A stretch of DNA of 64,000 nt, taken from Paenibacillus mucilaginosus 3016 (GTDB taxonomy: Bacteria > Bacillota > Bacilli > Paenibacillales > NBRC-103111). Position 1 is the first letter of the stretch, and each line of letters begins with the position of its first letter. The DNA is taken from the NCBI RefSeq assembly GCF_000250655.1, contig NC_016935.1, positions 5,970,001 through 6,034,000 on the forward strand, read 5' to 3'. The translations under genes and the position numbers were made by a program. Shown here piece by piece: positions 33,974 through 37,908 of the stretch. The notes under the pieces are model-generated. The model was not told the DNA's origin. It did no database searches and worked only from the letters and a program-made list of their open reading frames with translations.

Positions 33974-34666
33974 GTGCTGCCCATGCAACCCCATGCCTTC
34001 TACGCCGCGGCCCCCCAGCCGCCCATCGGCGCGCTTGTACGGCACACGGTGCCCGGACGGGTCGAAGTCACCGGCGAAGCCTCCGTATCCGCCGAGCCCG
34101 ACCGGGCTGTAATCGTGCTTGGCGCCGTAACCGAGAACGCCTCGCTTTCCGAGGCACAGGCCGCGAATACGGAAGCGGTCAACCGGATCATCGCCGCCCT
34201 GACGGCCCTCCCCCTGCCGCGGGAGGCGATCGCCACCGCAGATTACCGGATCGAGATGCAATATGTATACGAGGACGGCAAGCAGCGCTTTACCGGCTAC
34301 CGTGTCACTCACCTGCTCCAGATCACGCTGGACGAACCGTCACGCGCCGGTACGGTCGTCGATACTGCCGTGGCCAGCGGGGCCAACACCGTCACGAGCG
34401 TTTCGTTCCGGCTCGCACGGCCGCAGCCGTATTACCACGCCGCCCTGTCCGCCGCCGTGCAGGAGGCGCAGCGTAAAGCGGGCACGGTGGCCCGTACGCT
34501 CGGCGTGAGGCTCAGCCCGCAGCCGCAGCTCGTAGAGGAGCTGAGCCTCGTGCCCGAGCCGATCCCTTACCAGACGGCGATGCTGGCGGACAGCAAGGTG
34601 ACGCCGCTGCAGCCCGGCACCCTGCAGGTGACGGCGTCGGTGAAGGTGGTATATGCTTATTCGTGA
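33974..34666 (+). CDS. SIMPL domain-containing protein (DUF541)
   Basis: 230 residues from a GTG, or 227 from the ATG at 33983; neither has a strong ribosome binding site. The SIMPL fold is clear: GRVEVTGEASVSAEPDRAVIVLGAVTE, then TADYRIEMQYVYEDGKQRFTGYRV and VQEAQRKAGTVARTLGV. There is no signal peptide or membrane helix, unlike most secreted relatives, so it may be cytosolic. The function of the family is poorly known. It lies on the plus strand inside an otherwise minus-strand sugar operon and is followed by a small membrane-protein gene. Confidence 0.88.
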   Translation: MLPMQPHAFYAAAPQPPIGALVRHTVPGRVEVTGEASVSAEPDRAVIVLGAVTENASLSEAQAANTEAVNRIIAALTALPLPREAIATADYRIEMQYVYEDGKQRFTGYRVTHLLQITLDEPSRAGTVVDTAVASGANTVTSVSFRLARPQPYYHAALSAAVQEAQRKAGTVARTLGVRLSPQPQLVEELSLVPEPIPYQTAMLADSKVTPLQPGTLQVTASVKVVYAYS

Positions 34667-34931: not shown

Positions 34932-35337
34932 ATCGCCGCGGGTTGTGTATTCAGTTCAGGCGGATGTTCCGGGTCCAAAGCTTCTGTCGACGCTTCACCG
35001 CCAAAGGCTGCCGGCAGCAGGGTGATGCTCAAAGGCAGCGCTATTCAACGCTTTGCGGCTGCCCGCTTCGGCTGCAGATCCCTGTGCAGCGTTCTGGGAT
35101 CTGCATCTATTGACAGGCTCCGCAGCGATTATCGGCGGTTCGTCTATGCCGGCAGCCGCTTCGACGTTTCGGAGCGGCTGGCCAGGGCACTCGGACATCG
35201 CCGGAGCGCTTTTGGGCGGTTTGCCTGCCGGAGATCGATTGGTCAGCGTAACGCATTACCCGCGGCCGATATGCTCTGGAGAACTCTAACCCTGGTCCAG
35301 AGATCGAGATCCCGCGGTTTTACAGGCCCGCAGAGAG

Positions 35338-35524
35338 ATAACGGAACTCAGGTTCGCTATTTTTACAAAAGCTGCCGCTCCCGGAGCCATAGCGGAACTA
35401 GGATGCGCTATTTCGTTGATTTGACGGCAGAAGCCGGGGCATCCAGGACAATAAGGCATCTGAGTCCCGCTATCCTCCGGGAAATGACGGGAAATACCCG
35501 AATAAAGCATCTGAGTTCCGTTAT
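35338..35524. repeat. Four 24-bp repeats in two inverted pairs with 51-bp spacing
   Basis: Copies A (35338-35361) and B (35389-35412) are in direct orientation. Copies C (35450-35473) and D (35501-35524) are the reverse complement. The core is CGGAACTCAGATGC, flanked by AT-rich ends that are themselves partly palindromic (ATAGCG/CGCTAT). The distance between starts is 51 bp for both A-B and C-D. The 27-bp spacers share only a short CCCGGAG element in matching orientation, so the element and its period are conserved together. Confidence 0.9.
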
Positions 35525-35556
35525 TTGCTGCCGCGTCCACGTTCCTCGATCACCTT

Positions 35557-36330
35557 GTCGCACCTCACCGCCCGGCACCACCGTTTTCTCACTTTGTCAG
35601 CTCGTCCGACAACTTCTTCGCCTAGCGGACCAGCATCCCACGACTCCCTCCTCGCACCTCACAGTCCGGCTTCACCACGACTTCCCTCCTCTCGTCTTGC
35701 CGACAAGCATCCCACAACTGTCCCTCCTCGCGCCTCACAATCCGGCTTCACCGCGACTTCCCTCCTCTCGTCTTGCCGGCAAGCATCCCATAACTGTCCC
35801 TCCTCGCACCTCACAGTCCGACATCCCACGAGTTCCCTCCTGGCGCCTCACAATCCGGCTTCACCACGACTTCCCTCCTGGCGCCTCACTATCCGACTTC
35901 ACCTCGACTTCCCTCCTGGCGCTTCACAATCCGGCTTCACCTCGACTTCCCCCCTCTCGTCTCACTGTACGGCATCCCACGAGTTCCTCGCGCCTCGCAG
36001 CCCGGCACCCTAGAATTTCCATCCTCTCGCCTGGCAGACCGGCATCTCATGACTTACCTCCTCTCGCCTCAATGGCCGGCTTTTCCCGCGACTTCCCTCC
36101 TTCAGTCACAGTCCGGCGGTCCAATATTTCTACTCTCGCCTGACAACCCGGCTTCACCGCGATTTCCCTCCTCTCGTCTCACCGACAAGCATCCCACAAC
36201 TCTCCCTCCTCGTACCTCACAGTCCGACATCCCACGAGTTCCCCCCTCACGCCTCACTATCCGGCTCCACCACGACTTCCCTCCTTGCGCCTCACTATCC
36301 GGCTTCACCACGACTTCCCCTCCTCCACAT
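35557..36330. repeat. Degenerate 38-bp tandem repeat array, about 20 copies
   Basis: A unit of about 38 bp repeats head-to-tail, mostly 36-39 bp per copy. Conserved pieces in order are CGCCTCACAATCCGG, CTTCACCACGACTTCC and CTCCT. A variant half (CGTCTTGCCGACAAGCATCC) recurs at least three times. The plus strand is strongly C/T-rich. The period is not a multiple of three, so the frame rotates and the array is unlikely to encode protein. It ends about 210 bp before the yesO terminator. Confidence 0.92.
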
Positions 36331-36537
36331 CCCTTTAACTCCCGTGTCCTCACTCTTTTCTCTACCATTTTCTCTCCATCACCCACACCGCCAGCACTGC
36401 TCATCCACATCCCTCCAACACTCACACTGCACCCACTCAGCAGTCCTCAACCCCATCCTGATTGCCGCCCCCCGGCCTCTTGGCCTTTCCTCCAGCCCCT
36501 ACTTACTGCACACGCCCCCATCACCGCCGCCAAGTGC

Positions 36538-36572
36538 AAAAAAGACCCCGCGCTGTCATCAGCGCAGGGCCC
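36538..36572 (-). terminator. Rho-independent terminator after yesO
   Basis: CCCTGCGCTG pairs with CAGCGCGGGG (one mismatch) around a four-base loop and is followed by TTTTTT on the minus strand, just past the yesO stop. It isolates yesO from the downstream yesPQR genes. Confidence 0.88.
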
Positions 36573-36582
36573 TTGCTTAACC

Positions 36583-37908
36583 TTACTTCTTGTTCTTCGC
36601 CAGGATCGCGTTGGCATCCTTGCGGAATTTCGCGGCCGCGTCTTCCGGCGTGATTTTCTTGTACATCATCTGCTCATTGAGATCCTTAAGCAGCTTCTCG
36701 ATCTCGATGGAGCCGATCGGGTTCGGAGGATCCATCGGCGAGGAGTTCTGCTCAGCCCACGCCACGTAGTCGAAGACTTTGACTTCTTCCGGCTTCAGCA
36801 GCGGCTTCAGCGCTTCCTTCACCTTGGAGGAGACCGGTACGCCGCGCTCGCCCTTGATGATCTTGTTCGCTTCGATGTCGTTGATGAAGAAGTCGATGAA
36901 CTTCGCCGCTTCTTCCTTGTGCTTGGAGCTCTTCGTTACGGAAAGGTACATACTCGGCTTCAGGAACATGCCCTTGTTGGCGTTCGGGCCGACCATCGGC
37001 TGCAGCTCCAGCGGACGCTTCGCCGCATTGACGAGACCGATGTACTGGTTCGACCAGCCGTTGGAAGTGATCGAGTTGCCGAGCGTCACTTCATCGTCCT
37101 CCGGCGTGCCTTTCTTCTGTGCTTCCTTATCGAGCGTCAGGTAGTAGCCGGCTTCATACCACTTCTGCTGGCGCTTGAAGTAGTCGACGAAGTGCTTGTC
37201 GTCCGTGTAGCCGAGCGTCGAGCCGTCGGCGCTGTACATCTTCTGGTCGACGGTTCTCAGATAGTAAGCGAAGAACACGTCCGGGCGGTAGCCGCCCATG
37301 ATCTTGCCGGCCGCTTTGGCCTTGACGGCGATCTGCTCGAGATCATCCCAGGTCCAATCCTTCTTCGGAGGCTCGACGCCGATCTTCTTCAGCATCTCAA
37401 AATCCATCAGGTGAGCCAGCGCGTTCACGCCCGTCGTCATCGCGTACAGCTTGCCGTCCAGCTGGCCGGCGGAGATGATGTTCGGGGAGATCGAGCTGAC
37501 GTCGAGCGTCCCGTTCTTCGTATATGGCGTCAGGTCCTCCAGCTGGCCGCGGCCGCCGTATTGGGTCAGGTAGGAGATGTCCATCTGAAGAATGTCCGGC
37601 AGTCCGTTCGCCGCCGCCTGCGGGGCCAGCTTCTTCCAGTAGTCGTCGAAGGAAGCGTACTCCGCTTCGATCTTCACATGCGGGTTCTTCTGCTGATAGA
37701 GCTCGATGACCTTCAGCGTGTAATCGTGGCGGGCCTGTCCGCCCCACCAGGCCATCCTCAGCTTGATAGGCTCCTTCGTCCCGGAAGCGTTTTCGGTTTT
37801 GGCTGCGGTACCGCCGTCCGCCGCATTCCCGCCGGCCGGTGTATTGCTTCCGCCGCAGCCAGTCAGTACAAGTGCAAGAGAGAGCAGTGCTGTGATCGGT
37901 TTTTTCAT
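36583..37908 (-). CDS. yesO: Carbohydrate ABC transporter substrate-binding lipoprotein (YesO-like)
   Basis: 441-residue binding protein of SBP family 1. The signal peptide ends in a lipobox (LALVLTGCGG). Typical blocks are LRMAWWGGQARHDYTLKVIE, FDDYWKKLAPQAAANGLPDI and KTGA-less C-terminal ENKIIKGERGVPVS-type segment (NKIIKGERGVPVSSKVKEAL). It should deliver rhamnogalacturonan oligosaccharides to YesPQ. A strong terminator follows it, so it is transcribed apart from yesPQ. A cre-like element lies 34 bases upstream of the start. Confidence 0.92.
   Translation of the reverse strand: MKKPITALLSLALVLTGCGGSNTPAGGNAADGGTAAKTENASGTKEPIKLRMAWWGGQARHDYTLKVIELYQQKNPHVKIEAEYASFDDYWKKLAPQAAANGLPDILQMDISYLTQYGGRGQLEDLTPYTKNGTLDVSSISPNIISAGQLDGKLYAMTTGVNALAHLMDFEMLKKIGVEPPKKDWTWDDLEQIAVKAKAAGKIMGGYRPDVFFAYYLRTVDQKMYSADGSTLGYTDDKHFVDYFKRQQKWYEAGYYLTLDKEAQKKGTPEDDEVTLGNSITSNGWSNQYIGLVNAAKRPLELQPMVGPNANKGMFLKPSMYLSVTKSSKHKEEAAKFIDFFINDIEANKIIKGERGVPVSSKVKEALKPLLKPEEVKVFDYVAWAEQNSSPMDPPNPIGSIEIEKLLKDLNEQMMYKKITPEDAAAKFRKDANAILAKNKK

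Follow-up and report, generated by a model that had tools for sequence, protein, structure and literature searches.

Four near-palindromic sites at distances stepping by about one DNA turn in Paenibacillus mucilaginosus, an apparent dispersed form of the 52-nt satellites

What is the set of four short repeats that lies between two convergent genes of Paenibacillus mucilaginosus 3016, and is it better understood as an RNA stem, as a mobile element or as a group of sites on double-stranded DNA? The whole stretch of DNA that was analysed (the window, 64 kb) corresponds to positions 5970001-6034000 of the single-contig 8.74-Mb genome, and the features of the locus are given in Table 1. The four repeats had been noticed in a preliminary description as two mirror-image pairs at a distance of 51 bp; this arrangement is real, and the coordinates first given for it were correct within one base. 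The units are near-palindromes of 25 bp with centre distances of 51, 62 and 51 bp, and the partial palindromy that had been ascribed to them was borne out for the outer arms (ATA.CG/CG.TAT), which are symmetric, and not for the middle, which is asymmetric. A degenerate 13-mer gave 8 matches at 3 mismatches inside the 64-kb window vs 21 expected, so that only the four-fold arrangement stands out there. The intergenic region also holds, a short way downstream of the element, an array of 18 copies of a degenerate 38-bp repeat (35638-36325).

Table 1. Features of the four-site element and its surroundings (positions within the window)
Feature	Position	Strand	Remark
Unit A, forward site	35337-35361	+	GATAACGGAACTCAGGTTCGCTATT
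Unit B, forward site	35388-35412	+	51 bp past A
Unit C, reverse site	35450-35474	-	62 bp past B
Unit D, reverse site	35501-35525	-	51 bp past C; sole exact CGGAACTCAGATGC core in the window
C-D spacer	35475-35500	+	GGGAAAT at 35479-35485 and 35489-35495, 10 bp apart
Whole element, 189 bp	35337-35525	none	outer units are the homology limits between own-genome copies
Intergenic region holding the element	34932-36582		convergent genes; lower limit is the end of the short frame, read by eye
SIMPL-domain gene, followed by a short open frame	33974-34666	+	flanks the intergenic region of the element
ABC solute-binding protein gene	36583-37908	-	other flank of the intergenic region (3'-3')

The element belongs to a family within its own genome. 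The core CGGAACTCAGATGC occurred there 55 times exactly, vs 0 occurrences of a reversed control, and a unit profile gave at least 223 matches (150 of 2797 first-look candidates were scored). About 80 loci were recognised, and 91 groups with 321 units were counted in 445 kb of own-genome DNA, which was mostly fetched around matches; the elements account for about 0.17% of its length. The order forward-forward-reverse-reverse was kept in 60 of 60 four-unit groups, and in groups with both orientations the forward units always stood ahead of the reverse ones. By a scan for the geometry only (two direct copies 48-55 bp apart, then two inverted ones), no match was obtained in 420 kb of shuffled sequence, and the fetched DNA gave 312 matches at 48-55 bp vs 14-24 for each other 8-bp spacing range. 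A further 400 kb of own-genome DNA, evenly placed, contained one geometry match, which belonged to another family. The earlier impression that the motif recurs in Paenibacillus genomes was therefore right, with dozens of loci in this genome and more in related ones, as was its intergenic location (66 of 67 own-genome elements); neither confinement of the motif to this locus nor random spacing elsewhere was seen, and the regular spacing and orientation of the copies support the view that the spacing marks a recognised element. The orientation of the groups, read by eye, had no clear bias with respect to the replichores.

The consensus of the unit in this genome is AATAGCGGAACTCAGATGCGTTATT, in which the GGAAC half is nearly invariant and the other half is variable (GATGCG, GTTCG, GATGCC, GATATC); within a genome, further units may be rather degenerate. 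GGGAAAT usually occurs twice, 10 bp apart, in a single spacer, which is C-D when read as in the window, and this motif is also present in P. phocaensis and, as ATTTCCCG, in the genome G029. The element at 7105941 carries a third GGAAATGA copy of it, and its spacing there is 61 instead of 51 bp, i.e. one more step of about 10 bp. Copies within the genome are homologous over the full 189 bp with 68-76% identity, and since homology stops at the outer units, the element is regarded as a discrete 189-bp unit of common descent. Six own-genome elements (323258, 2846572, 3135734, 4975348, 5181524 and 6978433) share longer flanks, with homology about 40 bp before and about 100 bp after the element, as if they were parts of a larger repeat. 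At two P. phocaensis loci (L192 and L204) the tandem repetition extends to whole elements with their flanks, the periods being about 232-240 and 326-403 bp.

The distances between neighbouring units in the own genome were 50 bp (5 pairs), 51 bp (153), 52 bp (4), 61 bp (13), 62 bp (53), 63 bp (1) and 109 bp (1), by which 229 of 230 pairs fell at 50-52 or 61-63 bp. Among 50 genomes, the same-orientation distances were gathered at 49-52 bp (340 events), 61-63 bp (25) and 71-73 bp (11), with 1 event in 53-60 bp and 1 in 64-70 bp, and the forward-to-reverse distances at 68-70 bp (23), 79-83 bp (153) and 89-92 bp (23), with 1 event in 71-78 bp and 0 in 84-88 bp; events within one lineage are not independent, the uniform null for these spacings is crude, and the pattern for the named loci allowed only 49-55 and 72-93 bp, so that emptiness outside these ranges is by construction and emptiness inside them is not. 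The spacings across the 50 genomes step by about one DNA turn.

The same rule was found for palindromes of other sequence. In the own genome, CACGG-N5-CCGTG (40 sites vs 3 for the control) alternates between 51 and 62 bp (e.g. 51-62-51-62) and GATG-N5-CATC between 51 and 61 bp (e.g. 61-51-61-51-61-51-61-51), the long spacings of both ranging from 61 to 64 bp; the mean short and long spacings of the three families are 50.99/61.82, 51.14/62.19 and 51.0/61.25 bp, respectively, with the one own-genome spacing of 109 bp omitted. As these two unrelated families obey the 51/61-62 rule, the geometry is more widely conserved than the sequence. When 303 sources (302 fetched loci and the window) were scanned for the geometry only, 290 matches were obtained, among which 23 had fewer than two GGAAC units; some of the 23 were other palindromes and some were coding-like or simple-repeat-like. 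At two loci (L271, own genome about 2879400, and L459) a GATG/CATC quartet and a GGAAC quartet are neighbours, with about 0.2 kb between them. Palindromes of further sequences, likewise with the 50-52 bp geometry, were seen in other genomes (L143, L206, L229, L232, L118, L366, L343, L346 and L384), examples being TGTATGAAATATCGCATACA, TGTAAAAGTGCAGTTCATTT, a TTAAGACGTAATATACGTCTTAAT-like sequence and ACGGGAAATATCCCGT in tandem.

Between species, 14 orthologous element pairs had identities of 91.4% in the units, 71.4% in the spacers and 44.3% in the flanks, the neighbouring coding DNA being mostly 83-93% identical, and these values indicate purifying selection on the sites. Of seven elements of P. 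timonensis 12ME58 tested for position, six were informative (L181 was unusable): in P. timonensis DSM 16943, 4 were intact, 1 was degenerate and 1 was missing, and in P. phocaensis 6 of 6 were present. Since one of six was lost between close species, single copies appear to be dispensable.

For the gene context, genes were predicted by codon usage. None of 117 elements of the named loci lies inside a predicted gene, and their neighbours were 43 codirectional, 36 convergent and 9 divergent vs 301, 99 and 82 background gaps, respectively. The 64 own-genome elements with both neighbours comprised 35 codirectional, 28 convergent and 1 divergent, against background intergenic bases of 62%, 26% and 12%, respectively (convergent excess, P 0.0023; divergent deficit, P 0.0058). 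The GGGAAAT strand was the gene strand in 23 of 28 codirectional own-genome gaps, a bias that was not reproduced in the named loci (14 vs 9, i.e. 14/23). No gene family specifically adjoining the elements was found among 111 named loci, the recurrent neighbours of which resemble common paralogous families as read from the sequences.

Insertion sequences treat the elements as targets. With family names taken from NCBIfam (for the 489-aa protein, the IS1182 score falls below the model cut-off), 9 of 9 own-genome copies in a close set of the IS3 family lie inside elements; the distance from their right end to a unit is 15 bp in 8 cases and 25 bp, or one turn more, in 1. All 7 IS1182-family copies of the genome have a seen junction in the unit core, where they cut CT.AG (5 with both junctions seen, 2 with a single one). 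At L307, the IS3-family copy is flanked by units on a single side. An IS3 relative with 57% identity splits a CACGG-family palindrome (L497, own genome 1008327-1010015). All copies of the REP-targeting insertion sequences ISPpu9, ISPpu10, ISPsy8 and IS1397 likewise occupy repeats at a fixed position, IS3-family members being included, but the repeat class is another one, and here the IS3-family copies sit 15 bp (once 25 bp) outside the unit and the IS1182-family ones cut its core (PMC1525189, in the available part of that account). An autonomous transposon with the element as its ends, considered for clusters 1.3-1.8 kb apart, was rejected, as the genes between them are IS3- and IS1182-family insertions.

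We favour, with moderate confidence, the reading of the element as a double-stranded DNA platform with four predicted sites for a probably dimeric, sequence-specific DNA-binding protein, probably of an architectural kind; protein binding, dimeric state and architectural role are what we infer from the observed geometry, conservation, context and insertion-sequence targeting. Since about 5, 6 and 5 turns separate their centres, the sites would lie on one helix face, and protein dimers on them could therefore touch, directly or by wrapping the DNA. Dimers on the four sites would form one compact complex per locus, which may serve in nucleoid organisation or in the insulation of neighbouring transcription units at gene ends; an ancient spread of the copies from one ancestral element is probable, with mostly vertical inheritance today. 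The absence of elements from coding regions, their near-absence from promoter-promoter gaps and their use by two insertion sequences as exclusive targets, all in the own genome, support such a platform. Against it can be set the lack of a neighbour gene family, the degeneracy of units, the strong hairpins that are possible and the loss of a single copy, and the own-genome strand bias of GGGAAAT could hint at a role at the RNA level, which the named loci did not repeat. Should they prove architectural, the sites would add a new type to the known chromosome-organising sites, one present in a large group of bacteria that live in soil or in association with plants and insects. More tentatively, a geometric code for chromosome architecture may exist in Paenibacillales and some Bacillus, in which palindromes spaced alternately by 5 and 6 turns (51 and 61-62 bp) would be read by fast-evolving architectural DNA-binding proteins, with several site languages per genome, each in its own spelling, and with the distance and not the sequence as the invariant; such a code, if true, would parallel in bacteria the phased arrays that act as insulators or position nucleosomes.

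The preliminary description had likened the element to REP and MITE-like intergenic repeats. The first likeness fell with the search for a REP-type transposase, by which Y1_Tnp (PF01797) gave 0 matches in the own genome and was positive in 5 of 14 control genomes; REP/RAYT membership was rejected on this ground. As far as the available part of the source describes them, REP/REPIN-RAYT systems and BIMEs are similar in having short palindromic intergenic units, inverted pairs, many copies and insertion-sequence targeting, whereas the present elements have four units and not a doublet, whole-turn spacing and no hairpin covariation (PMC3116915). Inverted pairs of palindromic units are thus present in the elements, but as quartets. 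The second likeness held in part: MITE-like dispersal in the past is plausible from the terminal inverted repeats and sharp copy boundaries, with no target duplication or internal transposase found.

Another explanation, which we consider doubtful, is a MITE-like non-autonomous mobile element. Each of its ends would hold two sites, 51 bp apart, for a transposase that acts in trans and is yet to be recognised, and the geometry would be that of a transpososome as in IS21. Homology of the copies over their full length with boundaries at the outer units, the many copies and the several families per genome would suit it, but no convincing target-site duplication was detected (best z 3.8 of 490 tests, with small flank-composition effects), none of the scanned loci of other genomes held a copy with its own internal transposase, and the split own-genome elements inspected contain target-specific insertion sequences. 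Orthologous units conserved over their spacers are unexpected for a dead insertion, and the positions are mostly common to related species. IS21-type ends are expected to have TG..CA termini, which the element ends do not have. Each end of IS21 holds two repeats bound by a transposase tetramer (IstA sites L1/L2 and R1/R2), and the resemblance extends to the direct orientation of the two repeats, the inverted ends and the importance of helical geometry; the IS21 repeats are, however, 23 bp apart vs gaps of about 26 bp at 51-bp centres here, and the elements have no transposase gene between the arms and no target duplication detected (PMC10122671, in the part of the report available).

A long cruciform or stem had also been proposed. 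The whole window copy does fold strongly as RNA (-83.6 kcal/mol, z -7.2), because any inverted arrangement must fold so, but the stem is not conserved: A-D and B-C pairing within elements was equal to that of shuffled elements (z -0.3 and -1.0, respectively; 44 oriented elements), the covariation term of the consensus was negligible (-0.68 kcal/mol, 29 elements), and a tendency to pair beyond expectation was confined, inside the unit, to positions 4 and 20. A cruciform or RNA stem as a conserved feature was therefore rejected despite the strong fold, and since forward and reverse units occur without stem-like covariation, DNA-protein recognition fits better than RNA. It is accordingly improbable to us that the element is a bidirectional 3'-end hairpin (a terminator, RNA stabiliser or sponge) transcribed from the adjacent genes, a role that has been suggested for the 52-nt satellites of Bacillus coagulans, whose transcription is described in the available part of that report (PMC8625621). 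Besides the fold and this transcription, the enrichment of convergent contexts (28/64 vs 26% of intergenic bases) and the own-genome GGGAAAT strand bias agree with such a hairpin; yet its arms are no more complementary than shuffles, a spacing quantised at about 10.5 bp is not needed for an RNA stem, the strand bias is absent from the named loci, neither the window region nor three element loci matched any Rfam family, and a simple scan found no terminator-like or promoter-like site inside the window element.

The closest relatives of the platform are the 52-nt satellites of Firmicutes, which were reported in 2020-2021 as enigmatic, with constant length, changing sequence and no known function. 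Subirana and Messeguer described them in Bacillus, with particular abundance in Paenibacillus, as tandem repeats of a constant 52 nt and variable sequence, and proposed a protein that polymerises on DNA and needs a constant repeat size, or small RNAs; the elements resemble them in the period of about 51-53 nt, its non-coding nature and the several families per genome (PMC8161180, in the available part). The constant period was found with 51 bp as the dominant distance in three own-genome families and 50-52 bp in 50 genomes, and several sequence families of the same length are present in the own genome. The satellites are tandem repeats of one unit, whereas the elements are mostly dispersed four-site dyads with variable spacers, and the second spacing of 61-62 bp, the forward-forward-reverse-reverse dyad and the helical quantisation do not appear in the available part of the satellite description (PMC8161180). 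Tandem arrays of typically 4-10 repeats are not the rule here: most GGAAC loci are four-site dyads with a 61-62 bp centre and diverged spacers, and a tandem layout is seen in only a few, such as L012, which has 6 forward units. Arrays are longer in the CACGG and GATG families than in the GGAAC family, but their spacing alternates between short and long. When 27 published satellite consensus repeats were compared with shuffles, 7.0 vs 5.6 of 9 arm positions matched, and 13 of 27 were individually at P <= 0.05; as the published repeats are more palindromic than shuffles, the 52-nt satellites and the present elements very likely form one class, of which the element looks like a dispersed four-site form. 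For this class, a palindromic unit, a helix-set distance, a minimal four-site dyad, purifying selection between species and exclusive insertion-sequence targets are supplied here.

That the elements are unselected satellites, i.e. functionless, regular and drifting arrays produced by slippage or recombination duplications, is hardly credible. Recent tandem duplication is clear for some arrays (L012; P. phocaensis L192 and L204), but most elements are dispersed four-site ones with diverged spacers and unchanged distances, conservation between species is higher in the units than in the spacers and flanks, and the spacing is common to three unrelated site families. The dyad orientation and the homology of spacers between loci argue against a CRISPR array. 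The BOX elements of pneumococcus are modular intergenic repeats with a variable number of a fixed-length middle module; they are similar in being modular and intergenic and different in sequence and period, and to our knowledge a dyad of four palindromes is not part of BOX. No description of the four-site arrangement was found in the literature searched on Paenibacillus or bacterial intergenic repeats, and to that extent the palindromic site, the four-site dyad, the second spacing, the helical quantisation, the between-species selection and the insertion-sequence targeting are new.

The distribution of the family was estimated at several levels. Matches were present in 27 of 60 genomes in an initial scan. 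With a two-site pattern in 392 genomes of the order, many genomes had high copy numbers with a low control and many were at the chance level; counts in high-copy genomes were 74+79 (G029), 72+48 (G155), 46+43 (G189), 48+50 (G041) and 44+44 (G280). Outside the order, no genome in a phylum sample of 398 had more than 5 matches, and no quartets were found by the geometry scan in 400 kb from six more distant Bacillota genomes. The named-genome scan gave at least 118 stretches, at least 111 of them from Paenibacillaceae, which among the matches listed include Paenibacillus, Saccharibacillus, Cohnella, Gordonibacillus and family-level MAGs. Because the genome G045 has drifted GGACT-type quartets (3 in 400 kb), the absence of elements from some genomes is partly an artefact of site drift. 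A phage origin was rejected: the single viral_contigs match (L320, IMGVR_UViG_2636415620_000001, 31116 bp) was taken as bacterial, a Gordonibacillus kamchatkensis contig with the element being also 31116 bp in length. Several pattern stretches among the matches listed (L174, L215, L234 and L239) come from the Acidobacteria MAG ACE_ACI1, where L174 and L215 contain a palindromic repeat around AGAGATAACGGAACAAACGAAAT that is probably unrelated.
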